Source of the DNA: Kappaphycus alvarezii
Taxonomy: Eukaryota > Rhodophyta > Florideophyceae > Gigartinales > Solieriaceae
Length of the DNA: 64,000 bases
Assembly (NCBI GenBank): GCA_002205965.3
Contig: NADL03000624.1
Coordinates: 248,001 to 312,000 of the forward strand
Direction: 5' to 3'
Shown here: positions 3,340 through 47,369 of the stretch, piece after piece
Layout: each line of letters opens with the position of its first letter
Numbering within the stretch: the stretch's first letter is position 1
The notes under the pieces: model-generated
Seen by the model: only the letters and a program-made list of their open reading frames with translations
The model's database searches: none
Told to the model about the DNA's origin: nothing
Program-made: the position numbers and the translations under genes

Positions 3340-4450
3340 AGCACTTTTGTCGCTTGCAACACCTTCTTCTTGGGTAATTGGTTCTGAGTATCTCTTCTCC
3401 CGACGATTTACCCCTATCACCTTCCAAAGGAATTATCCAGAACTAGAGGACAGCTACTGGTTTTTCTCTACGCCTTTCTCTCTCAGTGGGCTGGGGCTCA
3501 CTCTTATATCTACCATTCACTTCGCAGTACACCCTCGCTTTCTGCTGAGCACATACACTCTCTCACACGAACTACTCCCCTATATCGATAAACCTCCAAC
3601 CTGAAGATATCAATAGAACACATAACTTTCTCCATTAATCCCTGCATCTTGTACACCTCCGGGCCGAGACTATGCTGGTATGCCTGCAGTCACGAGGCCC
3701 AATCCACGGCGTTCAATTCGACCTTTCTAAAGCTGTTCACGACAGACGGGGCAAACACAAACTAGCAACAGCACCGCAACACACAAATCACAACGCCTGG
3801 CGCGCAACCTGAGCTACCGCAGTCGATCTGCCAAGTCCCCCTGCCTTACCCCTCCATCCTCCCCCAACTCGACTTGAGCCACCCTCGAAAACTAGACACG
3901 TATGGAACTACCACGCCCTAGTAACCCCCACGCCCTAGTAACCCGGTCTCTCCCGACCGGGACTACTGCCACCCGGTGTCTTTTAGCACATACGATCCCC
4001 ACCTCCCCTTGATCCTCCCGGGAGGTATACGAGCCACTTTTCAGTGATGCAGAGATTCCTTGGACGTCACAATCACCTTCAACCGACCACATCTTCCTTG
4101 CATTAATATAACCAAAAAATTTCCCCTTCGAGGAAAACTCGACCAACTCCTTCGAAACATGTCGGTCATGCTGAACCCCTATCTTGAGTTCACCCTTCCC
4201 ACTGAAGTCTACGGACAAGGATCGTCGCAAGGTTGACATCTTGATTGAAAAGTTTTTGAGTCTGTCCGAGCCCCTGCTCCCTACAAGTCATCGTTGGAAG
4301 CCCTTTAAATACAAGAGCCATGTTCTACTCTCGCATGACACCGGAGGAGCAGTAGTACCAATCCAGGCTCACAAAATTCCGCATTGCGCTGAACTTGGTT
4401 TTACGATAAAGGCAAAATTCCTTCCTGTTGGCTTTGACACGTGCGTGCAA
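3340..4450 (+). mobile_element. LINE family A, truncated 3' ORF2 fragment
   Basis: Pieces in shifting frames align, in order, with the C-terminal half of ORF2 of the family A element at 7.3-11.3 kb. They are a post-RT segment with GLGLTL (about 3490), a segment matching VGPLHGVQ (about 3690), RLARNLS (about 3800), a cysteine-finger remnant ending near the RHNH motif (about 4075), the endonuclease-like motif with VDIL (about 4230) and the late motif FLPVGFDT (about 4420). Stops and frameshifts make it dead. An extra 50 or so bases after the RHNH motif are not present in the other copy. The right end joins family B sequence near 4450 in the same orientation. Confidence 0.75.
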
Positions 4451-6871
4451 TCGGGACAACTTCCTGAAACTCCCTTGCAAAGTCGCCTCCTTCGCAGCAC
4501 GTCGCAGCACCGCTCCTTCAGCGATTCCTCGGGATTTAGGGACTTCACTGAAGAAGAAGTCCTGCACGCCATCCGAGCCTTTAAACCGGGTTCCGCTGCT
4601 GGGGCTCGGGACTTAAGCAATGCCACCTCGTCGAACTCTTGCGAGCCTCCTCCACGCAGGCGGGCTTTCTACCGGCTATTACAAAATTGGTCAATGTGAT
4701 CGCCTCTGGACGAGCTCCCGTTACACTTGCTCCGTGGATCGCAGGAACCCCACTCACGTCACTGGCAAAAAAGGACGGGTCCCCAAGGCCGATTGCGGTC
4801 GGAGAGAGGCTGTGCAGGCTCGTCGGACGCTGTCTACTGCGAAGAGTGTCCAAGAAAGCTGCACTATACTTCCAGCCTCTTCAAATTGGGTTAGTAACAA
4901 GAGCCGGGACCGACACCGTGGTGCACACTACGCGAAGAATGGTACACATTCGGAAAGAGGGCAGACTACACATTGCTCTCTGCCGACCTCAAAAATGCGT
5001 TCAACCTCTGCAGCCGATCCTCGTTCCTCCAATCCGTGAAAGATCTGTTCCCCGAGCGCCTTCCATGGGTGCGGTATTGCTATGCTAAAGAGCCAGAATA
5101 ACTATGGGTAGGATCCAAGACCATGCGGAGCGTGGTTGGAACCCGACAGGGCGATAACCTGGGTGGGGTGCTCTTCGACCTAGTCCTGCATCCTCTCATC
5201 CTGAGAATACATGATTTGCTGTCCTCTAACGAGGATGGCGTCAGAGAGGTAGGTCATCTCCTACTACAGCTATGGTATCATGACGACGGATATATCATAG
5301 GAACCCACAAGCAGCTACTGAAAACAGTAGAAGTCCTCTCGTCGTCATTTGCCACAGACCGCGGCCTTTAGTTGTCAATGACAAAGTGCAAAATTTGGTG
5401 GCCTACCGCACCACCGCCGTCCGTCCAAGAGCTCTACCCAGCCGGCCTAAAACAAGTGTATAGCGAAGGGACTCACATTCTCAACGCCCCCATAGGTTCG
5501 ACAGCATTCATGCAACGGGACTTCTACGAACACGTCCAGTCCCTCAAGCCCTTCCTGGCAATAATTGCCGATCTCGACGACACACAAGTGGCCCTTCAAC
5601 TCCTCCGAAATTGCTTTGGCGTCTGCAAGGTCGGCTACTTGTTACGCGTCGCTCCCCCCTCTAGTACAGCGGAAGGCGCCAAGTGCTTCGACGAGATGAT
5701 CGAGAAATGCGTCCGAACTCTGGCCGGAGGCGTCCTCGACCGCGAGGTCCTCCGAGAATTCCAGCTCCCAGTGAAACCGCTAAACCCCAAGGAACCATCG
5801 CTGGGGATAGGCCTCACGTCGGCGCGGGACATTTCCGCCCCCGCTTTCCTCGCTTCTTGTGCCGCTGCTGATACCCTCGGCCGCTCCATCCTACCGGCTC
5901 CGGTATGACCGCTGAGCACATACAAAGATGCAGCCGACGCCTACAGGGTGTGGTCTGCCTCATGGCCGCCGTCGAAGATAGTTCCTTTCTGCGCCTTTTG
6001 CTCCAACAACCCACCCTCGCAATAGAAGCTGACGGACGAAATTCACGAAGCGGCTCAAGACCTCATACCCCCTGGCGACAGCAGGAGACAAGCTTTTCGC
6101 TCGTCGATGGGCCTTCGCGGTGCTAAACAATGGGTATACTGCGCACCAAGCCCGGGCCTTAAGACAAACATTGCTCCCAAGGCTCTCTCCGTCTGGCTCC
6201 AGTATTACTGCCAGGTACCGTTCTTCGCCCCGAACACCCCGTGCCCCAGGAGCAACTGCCCGGAAACCTTGGACATTTACGGCGACCACCTCATGCACTG
6301 CTTGCGTGGCCGAGAGCGAATCGAGCGTCACGACCGGCAGGTTACGGTCCTCACGTGGGACTTAGCAAAGGCCGCGCGACACCCGGTCATGGAGCCCCGT
6401 CCCATTGGCCAACACCGCACAAGGCCAGACATCAAGGCTTTAGGGAGCACCAGAGGGACAGGCTTCTTTGACGTTACATTCGTCAATCCACTTGCCCCCT
6501 CCAACACACAGGCCGCTGCTTCAACCCCTGACATCTCTGAATGCCGCGAAAGCGTCAAAATTCAGGAGGTATCAAGACTTCATCACCACGCATGCCAGGT
6601 CCCGACTGATCCAAGTGCCGATATCCACTCTTGGCGGGTGGCACCCGGACGCATTCGCGGTGGTCACAGACGTGGCTAGGCACGCCTCATTTCCAAACTT
6701 GTCCTTACGAGCACATGCCTTACGGCTGGCCTCACACCAGCCCTGTGAGGTAGTACCTCATGACACGGCCTCATTTCCAGACTCTCCATTACACAGACCT
6801 GTCCCCCTTAGCCTTCGGAAAATAGCCGTCCCGCATCCCTAATCAGTAAAGCACCCCAATTCCCCCCCCCT
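4450..6871 (+). mobile_element. LINE family B element, 5'-truncated
   Basis: A long piece of a second non-LTR retrotransposon family: reverse transcriptase, C-terminal cysteine finger, endonuclease-like domain and 3' UTR. Its 3' end is marked by TAATCAGTAAAG followed by a C-rich run at about 6840-6871, which recurs at the ends of other family B pieces in this window. The 5' part, including any ORF1, is missing and replaced by family A sequence. No target-site duplication was found. Confidence 0.75.
4500..6720 (+). pseudogene. Family B LINE ORF2 (RT + CCHC finger + endonuclease-like domain), broken
   Basis: Once encoded the polyprotein that nicks target DNA and copies element RNA. Recognisable pieces are: start of the RT with an EEEVLHAIRAF motif (about 4550); KKDGSPRPIAVG and CRLVGRCLL (about 4765-4845); ADLKNAFN (about 4982) carrying the first catalytic Asp; GTRQGD (about 5137); YHDDG (about 5276) at the YADD site, with His in place of Ala; thumb and linker with LLRNCFGVCK (about 5600); a finger CPRSNCPET...GDHLMHC (about 6242-6300); an RPDI plus FFDVTFVNPL pair (about 6425-6490), as in R2-type restriction-like endonucleases; and the family B signature GWHPDAFAVV (about 6637). 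At least six frame changes or stops separate them, for example at about 4985, 5098, 5371, 5908 and 6500, so no full protein can be made. Confidence 0.8.
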
Positions 6872-7070
6872 ACCGGTAAATCACCGCCGTCATGTCACTC
6901 GTCCTCCAGCTCAAGGGCAATGTCGCATATCGCTGCACATTGCTTCTCTCACCATGTTAGACTTGAAAGTCTCGTCAAGAGTTCGCCTCTGCGGCGATAC
7001 AAGTTCGTACCAATCTTTTTAACAATAATAAATCATTGAAGCATAACTGCTCTCCTAGAGTAAAAGCAAG
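6872..7070. other. Spacer between LINE B and the LINE A tail
   Basis: No gene is seen. The segment at 7045-7062 (AACTGCTCTCCTAGAGTA) closely resembles 11370-11386 beyond the other end of the family A element and may be one copy of its target-site duplication. Confidence 0.4.
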
Positions 7071-7233
7071 ATTGTACTGTACTGTACTGTACTGTACTGT
7101 ACTGTATTGTACTGTACTGTACTGTATTGTACTGTACTGTACTGTATTGTACTGTACTGTACTGTATTGTACTGTACTGTACTGTACTGTATTGTACTGT
7201 ACTGTACTGTATTGTACTGTACTGTACTGTATT
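7071..7233. repeat. (TACTG)n microsatellite with a 20-bp higher-order period
   Basis: About 163 bp of pentanucleotide TACTG repeats. Every fourth unit usually carries a C-to-T change (ATTGT), at 7105, 7125, 7145, 7165, 7190, 7210 and 7230. This gives a 20-bp superunit with one 25-bp step. The pattern suggests that four-pentamer blocks were amplified. Read on the minus strand it is (TACAG)n and directly follows the 3' UTR of the family A LINE, so it may be that element's 3' tail. Every frame is open through it on both strands, which makes spurious Tyr/Cys/Thr/Val/Leu ORFs. Confidence 0.95.
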
Positions 7234-7294
7234 CAAACAAAAAACAAACAAACAAACGCTTTTATTACAAGTTCACTAAACCGAGCAGGGTCGC

Positions 7295-10163
7295 TCACGC
7301 ATCAGGTGATGCGAGAGACAGGGCACGGCGAGCTACGGCATGGGCCGTGAGCTGGAGAACGAGGGAGGAGAGGGTAGTGACCAGGCGGTCGTATTCGACG
7401 GCAGCGGTAGTGCCGCGTCGTGTGGAGAAGAAGGCGGCTATCTTCCCTAGCGCGTGTGGAGCAGAGGAGCCCAGTGCCCCATGTGTGTCAAACCCGAGGG
7501 GAAGAAGTCGGCGTGTATTGTTGCGCAAAGGTCGGCGTAGCGTGCCCTCTTCTGGGTCTCCACAGGGGAAGTGGCGCCGCCTGGGGTCTTGCGGGCGTGG
7601 GGGATGGCGGCAGCTGTGTACGGGCTGGCGACAAAGACGTCTATGGCGCAGGGGCGAGGAGAGAGCTCGTAATTGTTGATTAGGATGTCCATCCTGTGAC
7701 GGTCTTGGGGCGGGAGGTGGTTTTCCGCGGGGAAGGTGTACTCGAGGGTGGGGTTGAGCATTGCGGATGGGTGCCGAAGTAGGGAGAACAGCTTGTTCCG
7801 TAGGTGGTTGTGCCTTCGGAGAAATCCTTCCATAGTTGGGCAATGAGTCGCGTGTCTGCCGAGCGGGTCGAGGATGGGCGGGGAGCGAGCGTTGGAGAGC
7901 AGACATCGAGGGCACCGGTCGAGGCCACTGAAGACCGGGTTGCCGAGGCGCAGTAGGACCATGTACGTCCAGATCTCGGGGGGACTCGAGTAGAGCTGCG
8001 TGAGTCCGGGAGTGTGAGGAAGGGGGAGTTGGCAGAGCGGGTTCGGCAGCTAAGGTTCCTCGCGAGGCGTTGGGCTGCGGTTTCGTGTTGCGGTGGAGAA
8101 GTTAGGTATGCTTGGAGGCGTTGCTCGTGAATGGCATTGGTGATAGTTGGCTGGACGCCATGCAGTGGGCCCACCGTTTGAAGGCGGGCGAGCAGGGGCT
8201 CGAGTTGGAGGTGGTCGGGAAGGAGGGACTGGTCGAGGGAGCTGTGCGTACTGCGGACGGCAAAGGTGAGGAGGTGGCGTCCGTCTTCCGGGAGTAGGTC
8301 GAGGATGATGTGGTAGGTACTGAGCATGGAACATAGATGAGCGGCGGCGTGGATTGAGGATGTGAGTGTGAGCCCCAGGCCGCCCATTGTGAATGGCAGT
8401 GTTGCGCAGTGCCAAGAAGCGTGATGAAGGTCGCGATGAATCCTTTGAAAAGCCCCTCGCAGTTCTTCATCAAACGCATTTGATAAAGAAAGGGTTAGGT
8501 GCGGCGGGGTTGTCCGAAGGGTGTACACGAGCTTGCATGCGCTTGCGCAGTGGCGAAGGAGGTGGAAGGAAGTTTGGGGATCCCGGAGGGCTGGAAGGGC
8601 TGCCCAGATGTTCCGGGCGGACTCGAGGCTGTGTGGGAGGAGAGAAGAGCATCCGCGGTCAGTTCCGATCGGGGAGCCGAGCACTGTAGTGGCCTCGGCA
8701 GTGACGATTTTGCAGGGGAGGCGGGGGAGGTTGTCGTTTCCGAACCACCATGCTTCAGTCTTGTGCAAGTTAATAAACATTCCTATCTGCCTGCCTTCCC
8801 TCTCGATAGTATGCAGTAGATCCGGGGCGTCACGGGAGGGAAGGATGATGTTGCCGTCGTCGGCATACCATGCGTGCATCGCGGCTGCGGGGAAGGATGT
8901 GTGCAGATGGCGGAGGAAAGGTTGGATGGCGAGTGCGTACAGGTGCATGGCGAGAGGGTCGCCTTGGTGTGTACCTGTGGCAGACTGCAGGACGTAGGGG
9001 CCGAAGTGCAAATCCGAGGCCCTCCCGTAGGTTAGGTGAACGAACCTGGCCGCCTGTGGAGCGTAGTCGATGACCGAGCGGAGAAAACAGGAGCGCTCCA
9101 CGCTGTTGAAGGCGTTGGAGAGGTCGATTTTCAGTAGGACGTAGTCTTGATCTTTCAGGGCGGAAGCCGTGAGGCGGAGGGCGTGTATGATAGCTTCAAT
9201 GCCGTGTTTAGAGCCAACTGCGTGTTGCAGCGGTCGTAGGTGCGAGAGAAAGACGCCGTCGTTGCTGAGTCTAGCTGCGAGGAGCCGTGCCACAAAACGT
9301 CTGTATAGGATCCCGATTGCTATGGGCCGTAGACGTAGAGAGTCAGGTGAGCTTTTCGGGATTGCGATCAGTGATGCGGCGGAGAGGCAGGTTTGGAGTG
9401 AGGAGGGTACAGTGCCGTTTGCGAGCTTGCTGACGAATTCCGTTAGGGCTGACAGTGCGTTTGCTTGTGGTTCTCCGCCCGCTGGAGCCGTCGAGAGGAC
9501 GCGAAGGATGGAGGGTCGCATGCCATCTGGTCCGGGTGCCGAGTGCCTATTCAGGGCTTGTAAGGCTCGTCGAACTGTGGACTCGGCGAAGGGGGTGACG
9601 GTGGGGAGTTCGGGCTGAGGGGTTGGCGTGGTTTCTTGGAGGGGCGAGGGGTGAAGGTTTTGGAGTATGGGAAGTGTGTGTGGGGAAGGCGTCGCCGGTG
9701 GCGTATTCTGTAGGAGGGCAGCCGTTGCTTTGGAGAGACATCCGTCCCGGACGTATCGTTGACATCGTTGTATTGGAGAGTGGGTCGCCCTCTGCGGCGC
9801 AGTGGGGTGTTGCAGTGGTGGAAAGGCGTCAGTGCAGCTCGTGTAAAGCTGTTGCCACTGTCCTTGCCTAGCGAGGCGGATGCGGTTGCGGAGGGTTGAG
9901 ATGAACGCCAGTGAAGAGCGAGTTCGTGTCTCGTGCCGGCCATTCCTGCGAAGAACTAGTTTTGGCGTTGCCAGGATGCAAGAGAGTGCGTCAGCTTGGG
10001 TGTCTTGTGTGCGGGCTGAGTTGTATCGGGAGTAGAGGTCGTGGAATAGGCGATGGAGGTCTGCGCGGAGGCAGTTGGGTAGGTATTTGAGCGTTGGAAC
10101 CCGCATCGGGAAGATGATATCGGGTAGAGGGCACGATTGGGGGTTCATGCCGGTTGTACTCAT
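7295..10163 (-). pseudogene. LINE A ORF2: reverse transcriptase with C-terminal finger and endonuclease-like domain, two frameshifts
   Basis: A single open frame runs 10163-7680 (827 codons). RT motifs are intact: SAPGPDG at residues 208-214, RLRPIAIG at 277-284, KIDLSNAFN at 345-353 with the first catalytic Asp, GTHQGDPLA at 397-405 and YADDG at 433-437. The first ~200 residues show no APE-type endonuclease motif. After the RT, the homologous reading leaves this frame near 7980 and continues in another (7962-7447) with a CPRC...GRHATHC finger (about 7914-7850) and an RMDI...AIDVFV pair (about 7695-7630) resembling R2-type restriction-like endonuclease motifs. It shifts again near 7520 into the frame with FFPLGFDTHGALG and ends at 7295. 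The first methionine is chosen because of the ATGA overlap with ORF1. Two frameshifts probably inactivate this copy; sequencing error is the other explanation. Confidence 0.85.
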
Positions 10164-11336
10164 TGCGTCGTTGCCATGTCAGCATCGACAGGGGGAGGTG
10201 TGCGAAGTGGGCTCGTGGGGATATTGCCGGTGGCGTCGAGGTCGTCGAGGGGGATGTGGGGGAGGTGGGGGGAGGGGAGGGAAGCATCCTGGCGCTGCGG
10301 GGCGTGGGGCGCGGGGGATGTAGGCGGCTGGGGTGTGATGTGCTGCACTGGGGGTACGGCGGCGAGGGACTGGTCGGAGGGATGGGGAGTGTTGTCGGAG
10401 TTGAGATGTGCAGCAGGTTCGCGCTGGGTCCGGGTGAGGGAGTCAGCGATGGGGCGGAGCGTGGCAAGGAAGTCGTGGCGCAGGCGCCATATGCATTCCT
10501 CCGAAGAGAGGCGGTTGATTTCCGCCATGATGATTTGATGAAGGGCAGCGATATCAGCAGCGGAGGCGCAGGCGTCACGGGGGTGGCGAAGTGCCGTGAA
10601 TGTGAGTGTCGGGACGATGAGGTCTTCGGCGGTGGCCTGTTGACGAAAGCGTCGATAGGCGTAGGGGATGAGGGGGACGGCTCGCTCGGGTGCAACAAGG
10701 AAGAAGACAGAGGGGGTGCTCGATTGGAGTACGGCGATTGGTGCGCGCAGTCCTCCCTCGCGGAGAGCATGACGGATGTGGGAGGGGTTGCGGATGCGGC
10801 CGGTTTGCTCGGCGGCCTGAACGTACACGAATTGGCAGGGTTCTGGAGCACAGAGCCTGCGTGCAGTGGAGGCGATCGTAGAGCGGGCGCGTCGAGTCAA
10901 GGGCATCGGGCAGTCGGGTTCTTCGGGGTGTCGGTTGGAGGAGGGTCCTGAAGACGTAGAGCGGGCAGGGAGCGCGCGGGGCGTGCAGGTGCAGGGCGTG
11001 CAGCGACAGCGGCATAGGTAGGGATGGGGCGGTTCCAGAAGTCTCAGGCGTAGGGGCGTCGCCATTATCTACGGGGGCCGGCGGGGTGGCGAGGTCCGGG
11101 AAGAAGGCAGTCGAGAGCTTGGTGAGAAGAGCGAACTCTTGTCTCATCATTGTTTTGACGGCCGGGAAGCCGGCGTCTTTCTTCATGGACGCCGCGAAAC
11201 GAGAGATGGCGGCGTCGTCGTCGAGGTCGAGTGGGCTGATGCAGGAGCGGAAGCCCATGGCCAGTTTGAGGAACGAAGTGGCGAAGATCTCCGGGTGGAG
11301 GGTGGGGGATGGTGTGTTGTTACGCATATTCAACAA
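10160..11336 (-). pseudogene. LINE A ORF1, with at least one frameshift
   Basis: The first cistron of the family A element. ORF1 proteins of LINEs usually bind element RNA. Translation from the ATG at 11336 gives a plausible start for roughly 80-100 codons; the reading then continues better in the frame that is open from 11065 to 10160. A frameshift therefore lies somewhere around 10950-11065. The downstream part contains alpha-helical-looking sequence (CEDFLA-like region replaced by RLSSEECIWRLRHDFLA, about 10500) and ends in a Pro/Ser/His-rich tail. I see no zinc knuckle, RRM or esterase motif. Its stop codon overlaps the start of ORF2 in the tetranucleotide ATGA (10163-10160), a typical termination-reinitiation arrangement. 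Confidence 0.6.
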
Positions 11337-11340
11337 GAAC

Positions 11341-11490
11341 TGTATGTATTGTGCTGTACTGCGAAGAAAAACTGCTCTCTAAGGTACCCACCTTAAATGA
11401 ATGTAGTGGTGAGGTTAGAATCTCTCCGGCAAATGGACCTAGGGGGGATTGAACCCCCTGTATTGTACTGTACTGTATACTGTACATCAG
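11341..11490. repeat. 5' flank of LINE A with degenerate TACTG repeats
   Basis: Short TGTATTGTGCTGTACTG (about 11345-11361) and TGTATTGTACTGTACTGTA (about 11459-11477) runs resemble the tract at the other end of the element. Between them lies the possible target-site copy at 11370-11386. A GGGGGATTGAACCCCC hairpin-like stretch lies at about 11444-11459. Confidence 0.6.
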
Positions 11491-14651: not shown

Positions 14652-16200
14652 GTGCAAGATCTGAGGGCCCATTGCCCCGCTTCCTCAGTTCAAGCTGCAT
14701 ATACACCTAATATGTTACAGGAATACTGTGAGGTGACCGTCATTTTAAACGCGCCAGTAGGATCTAAGGCGTCCGTGGAATATCACATTCTTGACCATGC
14801 CCACTCCCTCGAAGCATTTCTCAATGCTATCATGGAGCAGGAGGAGGTACAGATCTGGTTCCAGTTACTCCGCAATTGTTTCGGGGTCTGCAGATTGGGC
14901 TACCTTTTGCGAATCGTTCCGCCTTCCTGTACAAAGGGAGAGGCCGAGTATTTCGACGGCTTAATCGTAAATTGTGTCCGAAAGTTGGCAGGGGGACTGC
15001 TTGTTTAACAGGTACAGTTTTGAGGAGCTGCAACTGCCCATAAATCCGATGGGGGACAAGAAGCCGATCTTGGGAATTGGCCTCACGTCAGCGAAAGAAG
15101 TAGGCGCTACTTCATTCCTTGCATTCAGTGCTGCTTCAAACATTTTGTGCGCCAAATTCCTACCCGCTTCCACAAAAAAAACTTGACCTAGTACAGGTGG
15201 GAATGATGGGTAGTTTACTTCGTCGTCTGCCACTTCTAGCGGGGGGAATCTAAACGGAGTTTGGAAAGGAGGAAAGGAGAAAACAGAAACCGGTCTGCGC
15301 CTCCGTGACCCTTTGACTACATCGACGGGTCAAGGTAGGCGAGGAGGCATGCCGCATTAGACAGTACAGCTTGCGCTGCGTTTCTATGCATGTGACGCAA
15401 TCGAGGCTGTCTACAGATGGAGTGCCTCTGGCAGACCTTCGGACAGAGTTCCGTTTAGCAAACTTCTGCTCAAGCAAACCCCCATCACAGAAGAAGCTTA
15501 CGGACGCAGGCCATGCGGCTGTGCAAGATTTGTCGCCTGGCGATAGCCGTATCCGAGCATTTCACGCCTCTATGTCGCTACCTGGTGCTCAGGGATGGGT
15601 CAATTGCGCACCTTGTGCAGGGTTGAAGACGCACACCAGTGGCACGGAATTCTCTGTGTGGCTACAGTACCTCCGCTAGATTCCGTTATTCGCCCCTGAG
15701 GCTCCTTGTCCAAAACTTGGGGGCCCTGAGATGCTGGAGATCCACAGGGATCATTTGTTGCTCTGTCGTTATGAATGCCAGCGCACCATTCACTACAACA
15801 GTCAGGTTGCTTTGCTGGGGAATAATCTCGAACTGGCAGCTCGACGTCCTTTCATCAAACCTCGTCTGCAATATCAACTTCGGACAAGACTGGACATCAG
15901 GGTTATGGGAGCTGCGGGTGGGATTGACGATTTCGACATAATATTTATCATCCCACTCGCCTCCTCTCATTCCAGAGTCCGAAATTTCACCCACTGACCG
16001 GTCTCAATGCAACCAGCGCGGATAAGCAGAGGAAATATCACCGCTTCCTTGCGGATTTGCCTAGGAGAAACAGGCTAGTTCCTGTCCCCATCTCCAAGCT
16101 AGTTGCCACAGAGCTTGCAAGAAACGAGGCCAGATGTGCAATGGAACGGTTTCGACGGTTCCAGGCAGTCTTCTGCAGCGACGTTCGACGTTGACACTGA
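14652..16200 (+). pseudogene. LINE family B ORF2 C-terminal half, broken
   Basis: It aligns in order with 5380-6640 of the first family B copy. It starts after the RT active site at a KCKIW-equivalent position (about 14655). It then has ILNAPVGS (14742-14765), LLRNCFGVCRLGYLLR (about 14866-14913), LPINPMGDKKPILGIGLTSA (about 15031-15090), a QGWVNCAPCAGLKT segment (about 15592), a finger remnant (about 15705-15775), and the endonuclease-like pair LDI...DDFDIIFIIPLA (about 15893-15960). In the last, the expected RPDI is changed to RLDI. It continues through LVPVPISKLV (about 16077) to about 16200. Frame changes near 15005, 15190, 15680 and 15995 disable it. The RT palm itself is absent, so this is a rearranged fragment. 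Confidence 0.8.
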
Positions 16201-30143: not shown

Positions 30144-30800
30144 CTACGGATGCGGGCGGCGGAGAAAAACCTGTCGGACTTGCATTATTTGGAGACTAAA
30201 TGCAAAACGGGCAACGAAGTCGCGGAGCTCCTGTTGAGGGGAGGAACCGCGACGGGAAGCAGCGAAGGAAGTAAGGCGGCGGAAAAAACCCTTGCCGTCG
30301 TCGCCCAAGGCGCCATAGATATCAATCCCGACGGTGGAGAGGAGGATATCGTTTTGGTTGCAGTAGGTGCCGTAATGACGATGTTTCTCGCGCTCTGCGA
30401 GTGTTGCGGCAGCGCCTGCGGTAACCGTACTTGGCGAAATGTGGCGGCGTGCGGAGGGGTGGGCAACAGTAACGTCGACAGCGATATCGGTACTGTGAAG
30501 CCCGCATGCAGCGGGTATGTAAATGTCCATTCGTAGCGCGGAGGACTGCGAATGCCCAGATGGGTTGGGAACCTGGTAGAGGAGCGGATGTTCGACGAAG
30601 GCGACGATCCCAAGTTCCTTGCAGTAGCGGGCAGGAACGTTGCGGAGGATATGATGACGACGAGTCATTCCGTCTTCGTATTTGCAGGTCAACGCGTGTT
30701 GACCACTTGGACCTAAGACGGGTACGATGTCGGCCGAGCGGCGGGAGCAGACCGGACAGCGAGTAGATCCAGGGAATAGGAAAACCCCTAAATCCCCTCA
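30144..30800 (-). pseudogene. LINE family A ORF2 C-terminal fragment
   Basis: An open minus frame (ATG 30692 to stop 30144, 182 codons) plus about 90 bases upstream covers the C-terminal third of a family A ORF2. In order it has a finger CPVCSR...GQHALTC (about 30757-30686) followed by a His-rich RRHH segment, an RMDI...IAVDVTVAHP pair (about 30540-30470), a charged EREKHRHYGTYC helix (about 30400), the late motif VGIDIYGALGDDG (about 30330-30285) and a short tail. The finger, the Asp pair and a downstream Lys are all kept, so this is the clearest view of the endonuclease-like region. ACCAATAAAGATTT just beyond the stop (about 30100-30085) may be a poly(A) signal. Sequence to about 30895 may continue the element in other frames. 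Confidence 0.8.
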
Positions 30801-38291: not shown

Positions 38292-40924
38292 ATGGATAAC
38301 ACCTCTTCCCGAACTCCGTCCTCGAATTGTCCTCCCGCTCATGAGACCACTAATTCTCTCTCCGGGCCGTCTTCTTTCTCTGCTATACAGCAACCTCACC
38401 TAGCCTCAAGCCGTTTCCCGTATCCTCAAAACAACACCAATTCAACCCAGACGTCAATCTTCCCTACACAGAGCGCTGCTAAGCGACATGCTACGCCGAT
38501 TTCGAATCCGCTTTTGACTTCTAGCCAGGCTCAACCAACTATACCGCAGAATCACCCGTCTCAATCCACTTCAGGCAACATTCAGCCGCCTATGCGCCCT
38601 CATCTATCCCGCCCTTTGGATCTGTCGCATCCTCACAGTTCGAAACAACCGCCATCCCTCCCGTTTCCGGTCCGCTCAAGTTCTTCTCACCTTCACAATC
38701 CAACTTCTCTTCCTCACGCAGGACAAAACCGCCCTCAACTCCACGTACCTGGTCTGCAACTGTCATCTCTCTATTCTCAACCTCTTTCTCATCACAACCA
38801 ATTTACTTCTGGGCAGACCGAGCAGTATCGTCCGTTGGATGTGCAAGCCCAGACCCATTCGTCTGTCCCGCTATCCACTCATCAACCTGCATTGCAGAGC
38901 GACTTCACCAGGACCGCCCACCAATTCGCAATGCCTTCTACAACCGTCTCCAACTTTCCACCAACGTCGCCTCCTATTCACTCGTCCCGTTCTGAGCCAT
39001 TTCCAAACAGCAAGTCACTTCCGTTTCCGATCTCACAACATCAGCCACCAGCGTCATCCGTTGCTCAGTCGTCTACTGGCAGGCCACAAATTACAGCTTC
39101 TGTTCCGGCTTCTCTTTCCGCTGCGACACTCCAGAACGGCGCGTCAAATACTGCCACTCTGCACTCTACCTCTACCAATCTTGCTCAACAGTCTGCAATA
39201 CAATCTTTTGTCTTATACGATATAGCCAAGTTGCAAGCTGCAAAGTGCAGTATAATTTGTGGGAAGGTGTACAATGACAAGGGCCATAGTATTTGTGGAG
39301 TGTTGAACCAGCACGACAAACCCTGTCGGCGCATTGGCAAGTGCCCATTCCACGGCGTAGCAACACCAGTCTCTGCAGAGAATTCTTGCAACGGTTTTGT
39401 TGATGCAAATGGTACCGCTATGTCAAACGAAACAGGTGACGATGTCGTCTCCCCTACGGTACTATCTCCGATGGTGGCGGGAGATGGGAGCGGATCGATG
39501 CCCTCAGCTACGGCTCCCCCAAAAAGCAACAGTACAAGCACGGTTGGTCGAAGGAAGAACACTACCTGTTTTTGAAGGGATTGCAGACGCATGAGCGTGG
39601 GTCATGGAAGCAGATTTCAAACTTAGTCCAATCCCGGAATGCCACTCAGGTACAATCACATGCGCAGAAGTACTTTCTGAGACAGAAACAGAATAACAAA
39701 AACAAGCGCTCCATTCATGACTTGACCATGGATTCTCCGGAAATGCAGGAGATGGACAGGAAATATAGGAGTGGTGAGTTGCGAATTAACGCGGTTTCTG
39801 GGGGCATTAATGACAATATGTACGGCCTTAACGCCGGAGACGGCCCCTCTGGGAAATTGAGGGACTCTCATGGATCTGTGATAGGATCGATGATTGGCAT
39901 CGCAGGATCCAATCATGCCGGCATAGTGGGCACAGACAGTCTCGGCGGTGGTGTCGTCAGCGATTCAAACTTTACCAGGTTCGGATCTCATGGTCCCCCA
40001 ACAATCGGCACACGCTACGGACCGGGGCAAGCGATGAGTGCTACTACGCTGGGGTCATCCATGAGTTCAGGAGTACAAATTCCGCAGCTTACTGGTGCGA
40101 TTCATCAGAGGGCAGGACTCAATACGAGTGCATCCTTGATGTCATATGACTTCATGGGTGGTGGCTCCCACGGAACCGCATCGTCGTACAAAAAAATTAG
40201 CAAAGTTGCTTTCAATCGACCGGGGCAGGTACCTGATTCTCGAGATTTATCACTGGCTGACGCGAAACCTATACTGTCTCACATATCGTATTCTACCCCC
40301 GCACCGATATTGACAGGTATCACACCGAAACCCGAACATCGAATTTCCGATGCGGCTATCCTTGGTACGGCAGCCGACAGGGGTACAGACGGTAATAATG
40401 AAACTGGCCACGGGCAAGCTACTTATGGATCGAGTGGGTTTTCGACTATGTACGCGGGCGCGAACCATTCCTCTCTACTCCCTCCAAATCAGAGTAGAGC
40501 AGCCGCAGATGGGCAAGCAGGATGGCAATACGGGAGTAACGCAAAGGTACGAAGGGTGAACCCAACGAACGCGAGGGAAGCTATTCAAATCCAAGGCCCA
40601 TTCGCAGGGATGTCAAATTTGAACATGGCAGATGGTTACAGTGCAATCGGTGGTATGAATCAAGTAGATCACACGATGGAGGGCACTAGCAATCAGCAGG
40701 GACCTGCTTTTGCAACTGGTTTGTTCGCAAGTACGGATGCGGTTGAGATGGGGGAAGGGGGGCCGAGCTACAGTACAAACGGGGGGCCCCCAGGTCATGA
40801 ATGGGTTCGGAACGAACGGTCTTCAGTTAGGAGGAATAAGTGGAGTCAGAGGACAGGGCGGCATGCACAGCTCGTACGGAAGAAACTGACCTCATTTTCA
40901 AGATTGATGGGGGCATTTCAGTGA
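38292..40924 (+). CDS. SHAQKYF-type Myb protein with SCA7-like zinc motif, spread over two frames
   Basis: Putative nuclear DNA-binding regulator. Frame one (38292-39575, 427 codons) is Ser/Pro/Gln/Thr-rich and ends with Cys335-x9-Cys345-x5-Cys351-x2-His354 (ICGVLNQHDKPCRRIGKCPF region, 39294-39353). This spacing is that of the ataxin-7/SCA7 zinc finger; two more Cys (319, 323) precede it. Frame two, open from 39437 to 40924, carries the Myb repeat: GWSKEEHYLFLKGL with Trp at 39545, second Trp 20 residues later, and SHAQKYFLR at 39656-39682. A Gly/Ser/Asn-rich tail without domains follows. An in-phase candidate intron, GT at 39459 to AG at 39526 (68 bp), would join the frames; a frameshift is the alternative. 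Coordinates are therefore the outer limits. The RWDD1-like gene converges from the right, 374 bp away. Confidence 0.75.
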
Positions 40925-41298
40925 ATATCCCTGTTCGGGAAAATGGGTCCGATTTTTTGTTAAATTCGTAGTCCAGCAAAGCGCTGTCCGTTGTAAACAA
41001 TCTCGGTTTGATTCGTGTGCCAGCTGCATGGACGTTTTGGTGTTCCAGTGCTTAAGACATAACCATCGTTTCGAATCCCGGCTAAACGAAATTGAGAACA
41101 TGACTGATTTGGCAACTTTGACTTATGATTACAACTTTGACTAATGATTACAACTTCAGGCGCCTAAAAACGTAGGGGGGAATGTTACTTTTGTAAGTAT
41201 GTGGTGGGACGGATGGTGTGACGCGGATCGAGGGTTAGGGGTAGCTCGAGTGCTGAGGGATTTCGCAAGGCAGATGATGGTATGGTGCATCGTGCAGG
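40925..41298. other. Convergent intergenic region
   Basis: The shared 3' flank of the Myb gene (+) and the RWDD1-like gene (-). A tRNA-like string (GGTGTTCCAGTGCTTAAGAC...TTTCGAATCCCGG, about 41038-41084) has a box B resemblance but I cannot fold a full cloverleaf. A direct repeat TTGACTTATGATTACAACTT/TTGACTAATGATTACAACTT lies at 41118-41157. Confidence 0.45.
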
Positions 41299-41967
41299 TT
41301 ACGGGGAAGCCCCGCCCGCAAGAGCTTGACTCGCCTCAGCTTCCCAAAAGCTCTCACTCTCTGCCGATACCACTATAGTACGGCTCTCAAACAACTGACG
41401 GCCGGTCATTTTCTTCTTTGCTTCCTTGTCCAACTGCTGCTTGCTCTTCAATTTATGAATCTCTTCCATGAATGTCTCCCTCCATTCCGCGAAAGTCTCG
41501 ACTGTTACCGGCGTGCCGATGGCCTTGCTTGAAATAACTTCTACTTTCTCTGTCTGTGTCGAATCAAGAGTCTCAAACTTCGTTTGGTCATGATCGGCGT
41601 CTTCCGTACCGGTTTGGCCGACAACTTTATCCACCAGCCACTCCCTAGCAGCATCGCAGAGAGTGTGAACGCAGGGCATCTGAAGATTTTCCGAGGCGAT
41701 GGTCTCCAAATGAGACTGAAGTTCCTTGCGAGATGGAGCAGACAAGCCTTGTAATGCTTGGACAACGATAGTTAGCTGTTGGTCCGGATATTCGAGAGTG
41801 TGAGTGAAGCTTAAGCGTAGTTTGACGCCAGCGTCCGCATCATCATTAATGTTGATCTCGAAACGAGCGCCGGAGGCGGAAGTGGCGGGTTCTATGATGT
41901 AAAAGTCTTGATCGTAAATGGCCTCTAGCACCTCGAGCTCAGCTGCCTGCTCCTCGAGGTGATCCAT
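41299..41967 (-). CDS. RWD-domain protein, RWDD1/GIR2 (DFRP2)-like
   Basis: A complete 222-codon intronless ORF. The N-terminal RWD domain (about residues 1-115) begins with a short helix (EEQAAELEVLEAIYDQDF), has the YPDQQ turn at about residues 60-64 typical of RWD folds, and ends near DAAREWL. The C-terminal half has the RWDD1 family signature GTPVTVETFAEWRETFMEEI (about 151-170), a Lys-rich helix and KKMTGRQLFES (about 184-194). Length and order match RWDD1/yeast Gir2, cytoplasmic proteins that bind and stabilise the DRG2/Rbg2 GTPase and touch the Gcn1-Gcn2 stress pathway (family knowledge). The start is the first ATG before the conserved N-terminus. It converges with the Myb gene. No frameshift or stop interrupts it, in contrast to nearly everything else here. 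Confidence 0.9.
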   Translation of the reverse strand: MDHLEEQAAELEVLEAIYDQDFYIIEPATSASGARFEININDDADAGVKLRLSFTHTLEYPDQQLTIVVQALQGLSAPSRKELQSHLETIASENLQMPCVHTLCDAAREWLVDKVVGQTGTEDADHDQTKFETLDSTQTEKVEVISSKAIGTPVTVETFAEWRETFMEEIHKLKSKQQLDKEAKKKMTGRQLFESRTIVVSAESESFWEAEASQALAGGASP

Positions 41968-42769: not shown

Positions 42770-43047
42770 AGTTGACAGCACTGTACTGTTCGACACTGTA
42801 ATTACCGTACTATATGCATTGCTGCAATGTCGCCCGACTCGCGCCATCGTTCAGTACTGAAGCCTTGACTCCGTCGGCACTTTGTCGACGGGGTAAAGAG
42901 GAATTGTCTAGCAAACCGTGCCCTGCACTTTACTGGTATCCTTCGCCCCGCCTTTCTATCTCCAGACCATTCTAACATCTTTTCATCTCTTCCTCCGCAA
43001 AGAGCTTGGTCTCTTTGGTACCTCACGAGAACCCGTGTCGCGCCACA
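42770..43047 (+). repeat. Left LTR
   Basis: 278 bp, closely similar to 46204-46484 with scattered substitutions and small indels. It ends CGCGCCACA. The first base is A instead of the T of the right copy (AGTTGACAG against TGTTGACAG), so the usual TG start is mutated. Confidence 0.9.
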
Positions 43048-43082
43048 ATCCGGATTCGCGCTTCACGAACTCGTGAATCGAA

Positions 43083-44626
43083 ATGACACCCACAACACGC
43101 ATCGATGAACGCCGCGCCACTTTTGGACGGATCAAACTCCTTGCAGAAAAGTATCAACCGTCATGTGATACCGGGAAGAAGTTTTTGGGAATCATCCATA
43201 TGTTCATGGACTTGAATCCAATCGGAGAAGAAGGCACATCACAAGAAATCCCATCCGCCATGAAGATGTTGCTCCCGCCGGCCCGAACAATATTTACCGA
43301 TGAGTTTTTCGCGAAGCCGCTGTTCACCGTTCGTATGCTGAAAGATGTCGCCGATCTCTGCCAATGTTTGCCTTCGAAAGGAGACGTCGTATCCTCAATC
43401 GATGATGCGTCACTTCAAGTTAACAAGAATGAAATGGCTTTTTTTTGGCTCACCTGTGCCCGAACGGATACTAAAAATCAGGCGAAGGATCTAGCGAGAG
43501 CAATTATGGCCCGTTTCAGGAAATTAACGCAACGAACGTTGGATGATATAGACCAGAATCTTAGCCCCTCCCGGCCCCTACGCCACCGATTCTGACACCA
43601 CTGGCTCCTACCCCGGCTCCGTTGCCAAGCCTTGAGGACCCTTAGGCCCTGCCGCTACCAATTGAAGGTCAGTCTGACACACGGGCGCTATCGACCATCC
43701 TCAATTACTTCTGCGATCAGAAATCCACTGGCGAAAGGGATTCTGAAACCCATCAGGTGCAGTCAATTCACTCGGGGCTTCGAGACAACGATGAATGTGC
43801 CTCTCAAGCTGGTCTGTCCCCAAAGCAGAAGGGATCATTCTTCAACCTCATCTTCGCTGGTCCTGCCCGAATTTTCTTCTTCGAGCACTGCAACCCAAGC
43901 ATGTCACATCGCCAACAAGTTGCGGTTATGCTTTACGAATAAGACTCCGATGCCCATCAGCTCGAGGCTCAATCAGAGTTGGAAATTTTGTCCCTTCCCA
44001 AGATCATGCGAGAGACTGACACTGCGATTGTCAGTGTTCGGCTTGAAAAACTTGTCACCCAGATCAACACTCTGACACCTCAGTTTCCGGGTCAATTCCG
44101 CTCGGAAGACCACAAGATACGGTATCTTCGCTCAGCAATCCTACACCAAGAATAGGTAATACCAGCGCTGAGCCAGATTACCAGAGCCAAGTTCACTTAA
44201 AACCGTTTCGTGACTGCTTTGCGTGAGCATCTGAAGTTCTACACAGAGCGACATGGTCTGGTCTCCGTCAACACCAGACAAGGACCTGCCCAAAATCCTC
44301 AGGTACTTTCGCGACGTTACGGGAAACCACCGAAGCCAAAGAGCCGACGTCAGCTCCCGATGAAACCCCCGTAACTTTCGACCCCTCCGCAAGCACGCCG
44401 AAAGAACCCTCTAGACCGCAACAGGAGGCGTATGCTCTGCCATGTTTGCAACTTTGACGAGCACCTTTCCAGCTTTCATCGTACGCGTGACATTCGTCAG
44501 TATGTCCGTGACAGTTTCGCTCGTGGCGCATCTGCGGTCCATATCGTCCAGGACCTGATGACTACAGTCGACTGCCTAATCGAAAACGCCAATAAGCACC
44601 AAGTAATGCCAGATTTCGACTGAGAC
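43083..44626 (+). pseudogene. Retrotransposon Gag with zinc-finger-like end, broken
   Basis: It starts at ATG 43083, 35 bases after the left LTR. ORF 43083-43595 is the N-terminal region. The core Gag reading continues after frame changes with FNLIFAGPARIFFFEHCNPS (about 43839-43898), a helical region to about 43945, then KIRYLRSAILHQE (about 44116-44154) and RFVTALREHLKFYTE (about 44204-44250). After a basic linker it ends in CHVCN...HLSSFHRT (about 44439-44486), a Cys/His finger in the position of a nucleic-acid-binding knuckle. Stops at about 43595, 43942, 44155, 44372 and 44624 disable it. The arrangement resembles Gag proteins of fungal and algal LTR elements; the family is assigned by context, not by a search. 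Confidence 0.65.
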
Positions 44627-46203: not shown

Positions 46204-46484
46204 TGTTGACAGCACTGCACTGTACGACACTGTAATTACCGTACTGTATGCAGTGCTGTAGTGTCGCCCGACTCGCGCCGTCGTTCAGTACTTAGGCCTT
46301 GACTCCGTCGGGACTTCTTTGTCGACGGGGTAAGGAGGAATTGTCTAGTAAACCGTGCCCTGCACTTTACTGGTATAATTCGCCCCGCCTTTCTATCTCC
46401 AGACCATTCCAACATCCTTTCATCTCTTCCTCCGCAAAGAGCTTGGTCTCTTTGTTATCTAACGAGAACCCGTATCGCGCCACA
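46204..46484 (+). repeat. Right LTR
   Basis: 281 bp with TG...CA ends (TGTTGACAG ... CGCGCCACA). It is preceded by the polypurine tract at 46192-46203 and followed by the CTCTC duplication. Confidence 0.92.
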
Positions 46485-46489
46485 CTCTC

Positions 46490-46745: not shown

Positions 46746-47369
46746 TTAATACCTTTTTTTCGAGGTGACGACGACGCCAGTTATGCCGTTATCTATGATT
46801 TCTCTGCACGTTTCATCCGTGCGTGCGGTCTGGTTGGAGCCTGGACTGTTACCAGCGTGGAAAATGTGTGGTCTAGCACTCTCCGGCACGCCAATGGCAG
46901 ACTGTGGCGGAGGAGGAAGGAATTTGAGAGCATGTCGAAGTTGGCGGAAGCGTTGGGGTTGGATAGGCTTTGTAAGAAGGTCAGCGAGAATCGCCACGCT
47001 GGGGACATGCTTGGCTGCGAGGCAGTGTGTTTCGGTGAGGACTTGGAGGAAGTGGTGCCGAAAGTCGATATAATTTCGATGCTTGGCTGATGCGGTTTGT
47101 CGTGCGACTTGAATAGAAGCATGGTTGTCGATGAAGAGCGGTGTCAGCGTATTCGGAGCTTGACCAATGTCAAAAAGTCGTTGGAGCCAAAGACCCTGTT
47201 GCGCTGCGGAGGATGCGGACAGATACTTAACTTCACATGTGGACACGGCGACAGTCTTTTGTTTCCTGGAATGCCATATGAATGGGATGCGGGTAAGAAG
47301 CTGAATGGTACCGGTATACGATTTGCGATCAGTTGAGTTGGCAAAGCTGGCGTCGGCGTATGTGATCAA
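46746..47369 (-). pseudogene. Copia RNase H domain and C-terminus
   Basis: The longest intact piece of the element (207 codons). It opens with YADASFANSTDRKSYTG (first catalytic Asp in ADASFAN), then WHSRKQKTVAVSTCEVKYLS (Glu of the STCE motif), then IDNHASIQVARQ with the third Asp, and LADLLTKPI near the end. All three acidic residues are present. The last ~30 codons run into the terminal repeat and stop at 46746. The domain alone is readable, but the polyprotein upstream is broken. Confidence 0.85.

Follow-up and report, generated by a model that had tools for sequence, protein, structure and literature searches.

The 64,000-nucleotide stretch of the Kappaphycus alvarezii genome analyzed here (contig NADL03000624.1, positions 248,001 to 312,000; hereafter the window) carries on its minus strand a copy of what is very probably a two-gene retrotransposon family of the kind without long terminal repeats (non-LTR). 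Its members would insert by target-primed reverse transcription (TPRT), using a protein that combines a reverse transcriptase (RT) with a restriction-like endonuclease (RLE) and is made by stop-start reinitiation after a gag-like first open reading frame (ORF). We refer to it as family 1. A single, almost leaderless RNA would carry both ORFs, with ORF1 (~390-430 aa) encoding a gag-like protein that may bind RNA and ORF2 (~954 aa) encoding an RT with a zinc knuckle and, at its end, an R2-type RLE. Ribosomes finishing ORF1 at its TGA would restart at the overlapping ATG to make ORF2, whose product, by analogy with related families, would nick DNA through the RLE and carry out TPRT starting at the (TTTG)n-type 3' end of the RNA, at target sites that probably share no common sequence. 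The window copy would belong to a chimeric subfamily, in which the ORF1 of one subfamily is joined to the ORF2 of another. The window copy consists of the following parts:

7234..11337, minus strand: family-1 element, ~4.1 kb, a type-A ORF1 / type-B ORF2 chimera with a 5' untranslated region of ~10 nt

10160..11327, minus strand: ORF1, gag-like, with its ATG at 11327 and its TGA at 10162-10160

7295..10163, minus strand: ORF2, with its ATG at 10163-10161; full length is 954 aa in copy L014

8745..9362, minus strand: RT domain, from Pfam RVT_1 and a PDB match to R2; YADDG at 8867-8853

7840..7914, minus strand: zinc knuckle CX2CX16HX3C, from a motif pattern

7537..7839, minus strand: putative RLE motifs RHN, E, RMD, D and K-x2-R-Y, from the motif definitions of PMC12857005 and PMC5678591

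7073..7233, minus strand: (ACAGT)n microsatellite beside the 3' tail, outside the family

The ORF1 stop (TGA, 10162-10160) and the ORF2 start (ATG, 10163-10161) overlap in an ATGA at 10163-10160 of the minus strand, just as a first-pass annotation, made from the sequence alone, had read it. We searched the 336-Mb assembly and fetched 20 family-1 places, which with the window copy make 21; four of these (L015, L017, L018 and L019) were excluded from the junction set because their ORF2 match starts past the ORF2 start. All 17 remaining copies have the ATGA and read CAATGAGT, all have an in-frame stop in the ORF2 frame six codons 5' of the ORF2 ATG, and in all of them ORF1 ends with the heptapeptide ADM[AV]T[TS]Q, with additional frame damage just upstream in L024, L026 and L028. 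The overlap recurs in a diverged second family, family 2, in five of the six copies fetched (L039-L043, near-identical at the junction), the sixth, L044, having no match to this region. The two-ORF structure is thus no artefact of the window copy. AUGA and UAAUG are both named as coupled stop-start overlaps, with SART1 as the LINE (long interspersed nuclear element) case (PMC5972666), and from the conserved ATGA we infer that ORF2 is made by reinitiation at AUGA.

A separate observation concerns the end of ORF1, which reads DADM plus four residues in both families (window 10186-10160; L039-L043), with AADM in L025. The ending is kept though the ORF1s of the two families are only ~30% identical, and the ATG of its methionine opens a five-codon frame that ends exactly at the ATGA overlap.

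Both ORFs encode real, selected proteins. The ORF2 search of the genome, in which 55 of 12,586 candidates were scored, matched at least 72 stretches, several of which can come from the same copy. In copy L014, ORF2 is a single 954-aa frame, running from MSTTGM to SPDA and holding the RT, the knuckle and the RLE motifs. Family 1 divides into subfamilies A and B, whose ORF2s are 69% identical, and comparing A with B gives a ratio of nonsynonymous to synonymous change (dN/dS) of 0.128 in ORF2 and of 0.141 and 0.125 in two parts of ORF1, whereas shifted-frame controls give 1.23-2.20. The comparison within subfamily A yields 0.136, and that of the window ORF1 with L014 yields 0.173. Both ORFs are thus under purifying selection.

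The window copy is itself a damaged, broken member of its family. Alignment with relatives places frame changes near 11.03 and 10.93 kb in ORF1 and near 7.98 and 7.50 kb in ORF2. The 827-aa open frame that carries the RT (10163-7680) departs from the coding frame near 7.98 kb, the CCHC knuckle and RLE motifs (7914-7537) lie in another frame, in the ORF 7962-7447, and the ORF2 C-terminus lies in a third. The first-pass annotation had placed a CCHC finger and an RMDI...DVFV pair after the RT; both are present, but in the ORF 7962-7447 and not in the 827-aa RT ORF. Codon usage assigns the frames roughly as 0 to 10.92 kb, 1 to 10.16, 0 to 8.0, 2 to 7.5 and 1 to the end, with a few 120-nt bins favouring another frame. 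The frame changes coincide with runs of C or lie next to them, so that sequencing errors could account for some. The 5' border is common to copy L054, and the 3' border, ...TAATAAAAGCGTTTG(TTTG)n, is found in other copies too. A minus-strand LINE at this place had been proposed and stands, but it runs from ~11337 to ~7234 rather than over 7063..11369, the (ACAGT)n array at 7073-7233 falling outside it.

ORF1 contains a conserved block within 10268-10927 of the window, of which ~150 aa are conserved between families 1 and 2. Neither ORF1 nor the block, when searched, matched any Pfam family or PDB chain; by eye, the block has a pattern that may resemble an RNA recognition motif.

The RT is intact in the window copy, as had been noted (Pfam RVT_1, E 1.2e-15, aa 268-473; YADDG at aa 433-437). 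Its best PDB match is R2 (E 1.5e-8), followed by L1 ORF2 (E 2.8e-4), and in a profile search the two scored nearly equally (1.7e-14 for R2 vs 5.3e-14 for L1). The earlier reading that the first 200 residues of ORF2 contain no APE-type (apurinic/apyrimidinic) endonuclease also stands: in two ORF2s only RVT_1 was found at E up to 1, and nothing in ORF1.

Downstream of the RT, the window copy reads C-X2-C-X16-H-X3-C-X8-RHN-X21-E-X15-RMD-X15-D, followed by KRARY. The published RLE consensus is C-X1-3-C-X7-8-H-X3-4-C-X9-10-RHD/N-X19-33-E-X9-21-R/KPD-X12-14-D/E (PMC12857005); in LINE RLEs, catalysis depends on a lysine that is the first K of KX2KY (PMC5678591). By the spacing of the former, HX3C, RHN and E fit, whereas CX16H, the X8 before RHN, RMD and the X15 to D depart. 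A widened pattern (CCHC-RH-E-RxD-D), which was designed after the sequence had been inspected, occurs at three places in the window (7914 and 30758 on the minus strand, 6242 on the plus strand), in none of 100 Markov windows and in none of 1000 random 4.3-kb stretches generated with the composition of the element. The first, shorter half of the pattern occurs three times in the window, never in the Markov windows and once in the random stretches. With K-x2-[RHK]-Y included, the RLE pattern is present in seven of seven ORF2 or pol proteins from three lineages (two of the proteins, L051 and L052, being 99% alike). The knuckle CX2CX16HX3C is found in families 1 and 2, and the RLE motifs are conserved between families. 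The R2-type C-terminal endonuclease architecture first proposed for this element is thus supported by conserved motifs, the KX2KY-like part among them, and at the level of motifs the family probably belongs with the RLE-bearing LINEs. Pattern controls, dN/dS and the 17 of 17 junctions together rule out chance or an artefact of one broken copy.

Several observations weigh against the two-gene RT-RLE reading set out above. In no copy examined were both ORFs shown to be intact, the ORF1 of L014 being shifted near its end, and constraint on the window ORF2 is weaker (dN/dS 0.347 vs L009). Neither pieces nor profiles of the RLE gave a relevant match in PDB, and although the R2 RRHN region is collinear with the full ORF2 profile, it scores 0.2 bits. 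Reinitiation is read from the overlap, which in SART1 is UAAUG, not AUGA.

The window also holds four pieces of related elements, among them pieces of two further groups, family 2 and lineage 3:

3422..4435, plus strand: decayed relative, linker and RLE pieces

30144..30797, minus strand: family 2, C-terminal piece with an uninterrupted RLE

4657..6679, plus strand: lineage 3 piece with RT and RLE (CX4CX9HX3C, RHD, RPDI, FDVTF)

14727..16160, plus strand: second lineage 3 piece, decayed

The first-pass annotation took the element to recur at 3.3 and 30.1 kb, but the pieces at 3.4-4.4 and 30.4-30.8 kb have only 28-37% protein identity to it and therefore represent diverged, related families, not copies. 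Family 2 is abundant (at least 150 matches, 150 having been scored of 10,066 candidates), with 31 rows of identical score (432.2 bits) among the matches listed. Its copies L039 and L040 have a 954-aa ORF2 that is 37% identical to that of L014 over 938 aa, and its ORF1 is related to that of family 1 (~30% identity; E 2e-21 with L039) and ends in DADMDPNA. Lineage 3 is likewise abundant (at least 150 matches, 150 scored of 11,748 candidates), and because both groups have many same-scoring copies, both look recently active. In all five lineage 3 copies fetched (L049-L053) there is one long ORF, of 992 aa from the first methionine in L049 and 1007 in L053, L050 having the same 1031-aa open frame as L049. 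Two long versions (L051 and L052; 1152 and 1153 aa) have ~200 extra N-terminal residues that, read by eye, begin with a C2H2-type finger. Family-1 ORF2 and lineage 3 are 26-27% identical over ~840-870 aa. ORF2 residue 6 aligns to L051 residue 203 (26%), so that ORF2 appears to be without the lineage 3 N-terminal part; ORF1 has no similarity to lineage 3 (best E 3.0). Both family 1 and lineage 3 thus have the order RT, knuckle, RLE, but lineage 3 has a single ORF (992-1153 aa).

The RTs of families 1 and 2 and lineage 3 form one group apart from R2 and L1, with 100/99 support in two trees, one of 10 rows (6 local, 2 R2, 2 L1) and one of 12, to which two group II intron RTs were added; neither tree included CRE, NeSL, R4, Hero, Dualen or Entamoeba LINE rows. 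With three groups, the 10-row tree gives no order among R2, L1 and the local RTs. Families 1 and 2, which have two ORFs, come together in only 10% of its 200 bootstrap trees, so that their union is not supported. In the 12-row tree, flagged for long branches and uneven composition, a branch sets R2 and L1 apart from all other rows in 32% of 200 bootstraps, and R2 and the local RTs in 19%. Pairwise, the R2 sequence 9nl2 is closer to L1 (28.7% identity, E 2e-29) than to the local RTs (best E 4e-17), while the shorter R2 segment 9nl3 is equally close to famB (3e-14) and L1 (7e-14).

How these families relate to described LINEs can be weighed feature by feature. RLE-bearing LINEs are described as single-ORF elements, two ORFs being a trait of the later-branching APE group (PMC5678591, PMC3636483). 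R2 resembles family 1 in the order RT, zinc knuckle, RLE, and PDB R2 is the top RT match, with L1 nearly equal by profile; however, R2 has a single ORF where families 1 and 2 have two, its knuckle is CX2-3CX7-8HX4C rather than CX2CX16HX3C, its target in ribosomal DNA is fixed whereas family-1 flanks after the tail are unrelated (except in L009 and L027), and the local RTs fall outside the two-row R2 group. The CRE clade (SLACS, CZAR, CRE, MoTeR, FoTeR), compared by motif only, shares the order RHD/N-E-RxD-D/E and HX3-4C (PMC12857005), but it is site-specific or telomeric and has R/KPD or RAD where family 1 has RMD. In SART1 and other two-ORF APE LINEs the ORF2 start overlaps the ORF1 stop (UAAUG in SART1; PMC5972666, from a reference title); two-ORF APE LINEs (L1, Jockey, I, R1) nevertheless carry an APE domain at the start of ORF2, and Dualen/RandI carry both APE and RLE, whereas no APE was found in family 1.

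A further likeness, one of layout, is to the Entamoeba LINEs (EhLINE/EdLINE), which are placed in the R2 group and have ORFs of 480 and 956 aa, with a nuclease motif in Ed_LINE2 (PMC2657916). Like family 1 (~390-430 and 954 aa), they have two ORFs with an RLE ending ORF2 (PMC2657916), and they make target duplications without a single fixed target (PMC2657916, PMC3118788). They differ in that their nuclease prefers GTATT-like sites (PMC3118788), and a stop-start overlap is not described in section 16 of PMC2657916. Two ORFs with an RLE in ORF2, the mark of the Entamoeba type, are found in families 1 and 2. The combination of two ORFs with an RLE, an old type of endonuclease, is therefore of a known kind, though recorded in few organisms, and because Entamoeba LINEs combine both traits (PMC2657916), two ORFs and an RLE alone do not make a new lineage.

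These likenesses make it slightly favoured, in our judgment, that the family simply falls within some named clade (CRE, R4, Entamoeba-like or another), perhaps one with two-ORF members. The Entamoeba LINEs, with their ORF sizes, C-terminal nuclease motif and target duplications (PMC2657916), speak for such a placement, as does the HX3C knuckle, which is shared with MoTeR and FoTeR (PMC12857005). A bolder reading, which we hold only tentatively and consider rather unlikely, is that these elements represent an old LINE lineage of their own. Its RLE-type ORF2, free of any APE, would have been joined by a gag-like ORF1 with stop-start coupling, the two ORFs would be exchanged between subfamilies as modules, and its single-ORF sister in the same genome would give a before-and-after view of ORF1 gain or loss in LINEs. 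A distinct lineage had been suggested from the outset: the RT group does stand apart from the R2 and L1 rows, but novelty of the two-ORF RLE form does not hold, as it is known in Entamoeba. In a literature search that ran without Repbase and most subscription papers, we found no precedent for a two-ORF RLE form conserved across two diverged families with stop-start coupling, nor for the near-leaderless form, the modular chimera or a single-ORF sister in the same genome. No relatives outside this genome were found in collections of viral contigs (three scans), genome contigs, plasmids or phages.

Two further alternatives concern the junction. Since ORF2 lies in the -1 frame relative to ORF1 there, the two could in principle be fused by -1 ribosomal frameshifting within the short overlap, but by eye the interval from the upstream stop to the end of ORF1 holds no slippery X-XXY-YYZ heptamer common to family 2 and both subfamilies, and all 17 family-1 and five family-2 copies checked have an ATG exactly at the overlap, so that we consider this improbable. 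Least of all do we credit a single-ORF, R2-like element whose one gene is split by frameshifts in the window copy, for although this copy has several other frame changes, lineage 3 has a single ORF and an older two-ORF view of the CRE elements of Trypanosoma cruzi has given way to a single ORF in most species (PMC12278014), the ATGA and the upstream stop are kept in every family-1 junction copy, and the ATGA is present in family 2 as well, at 37% ORF2 identity.

Within family 1, the two-gene organization is modular. In a binned comparison over 2.2 kb, the window copy matches type A at 99-100% identity from the start of ORF1 to 36 nt past the ORF2 ATG, is mixed A/B over the next 150 nt, and matches type B at 94-99% over the remainder. 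Copy L054 (contig C744) has the same switch from A to B just inside ORF2 but other flanks, so either the chimera was handed down as a subfamily or it formed on two occasions. The two ORFs behave as modules.

The ends of the copies fit TPRT-type insertion at various sites, as far as tails, flank repeats and unrelated flanks can indicate it. The 3' end reads ...TAATAAAAGCGT, followed by short (TTTG)-type repeats and then by unrelated flank; L012, L022 and L026 have no clear tail, and L009 and L027 share flanks and are for that reason counted as one insertion, the other flanks inspected after the tail being unrelated. From our reading of the alignments, the ORF1 ATG follows the 5' border by 18 nt in three copies (L014, L023, L024), by 10 nt in L054 as in the window copy, and by ~3 nt in seven of the eight B copies inspected. 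Matches between the two flanks of at least 7 nt occur in 8 of 13 copies vs 10 of 154 mismatched pairs, and those of at least 9 nt in 4 of 13 vs 3 of 154, although a short flank repeat in any single copy may be due to chance; three of the 13 have none of 6 nt or more. The window copy's own 8-nt match falls in the microsatellite. The (ACAGT)n array was ruled out as an insertion target, since the sequence inspected downstream of 20 other copies does not show it, and a flank match beyond it (score 24) was not used, as 20 of 4971 random pairs reach that score. The full-length copy L010 (contig C477) is abutted at both ends by a 379-bp direct duplication, 93% identical and far longer than the flank repeats of other copies.

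Other features of the window lie apart from these elements. Host gene candidates fall within 38292-41967, among them a candidate Myb-like protein (39572-40924; Pfam Myb_DNA-binding below cut-off, with a SHAQKYF motif) and, on the minus strand, a candidate RWD and DFRP_C protein (41299-41967). A direct repeat occupies 42771-43050 and 46205-46487 (91-94% identical, ~3.4 kb apart), and the ORFs 43083-43595 and 46746-47369 lie near its two units. Elsewhere in the genome, a Pfam search gave three phycobilisome-domain matches, of which two were fetched (L055 on C74 and L056 on C669); these are diverged phycobiliprotein-like domains with N-terminal extensions, on contigs that also carry these LINEs, and the best PDB match of L055 is a phycobilisome core component (~53 bits). 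Such domains would point to a red alga, or some other alga with these pigments, as the host.

A conserved two-ORF RLE lineage that shares its genome with a one-ORF sister would uncouple ORF1 gain from the endonuclease switch in LINE evolution, and the order of the two events would become testable. The proteins of RLE-bearing LINEs are also of interest as tools for DNA insertion.

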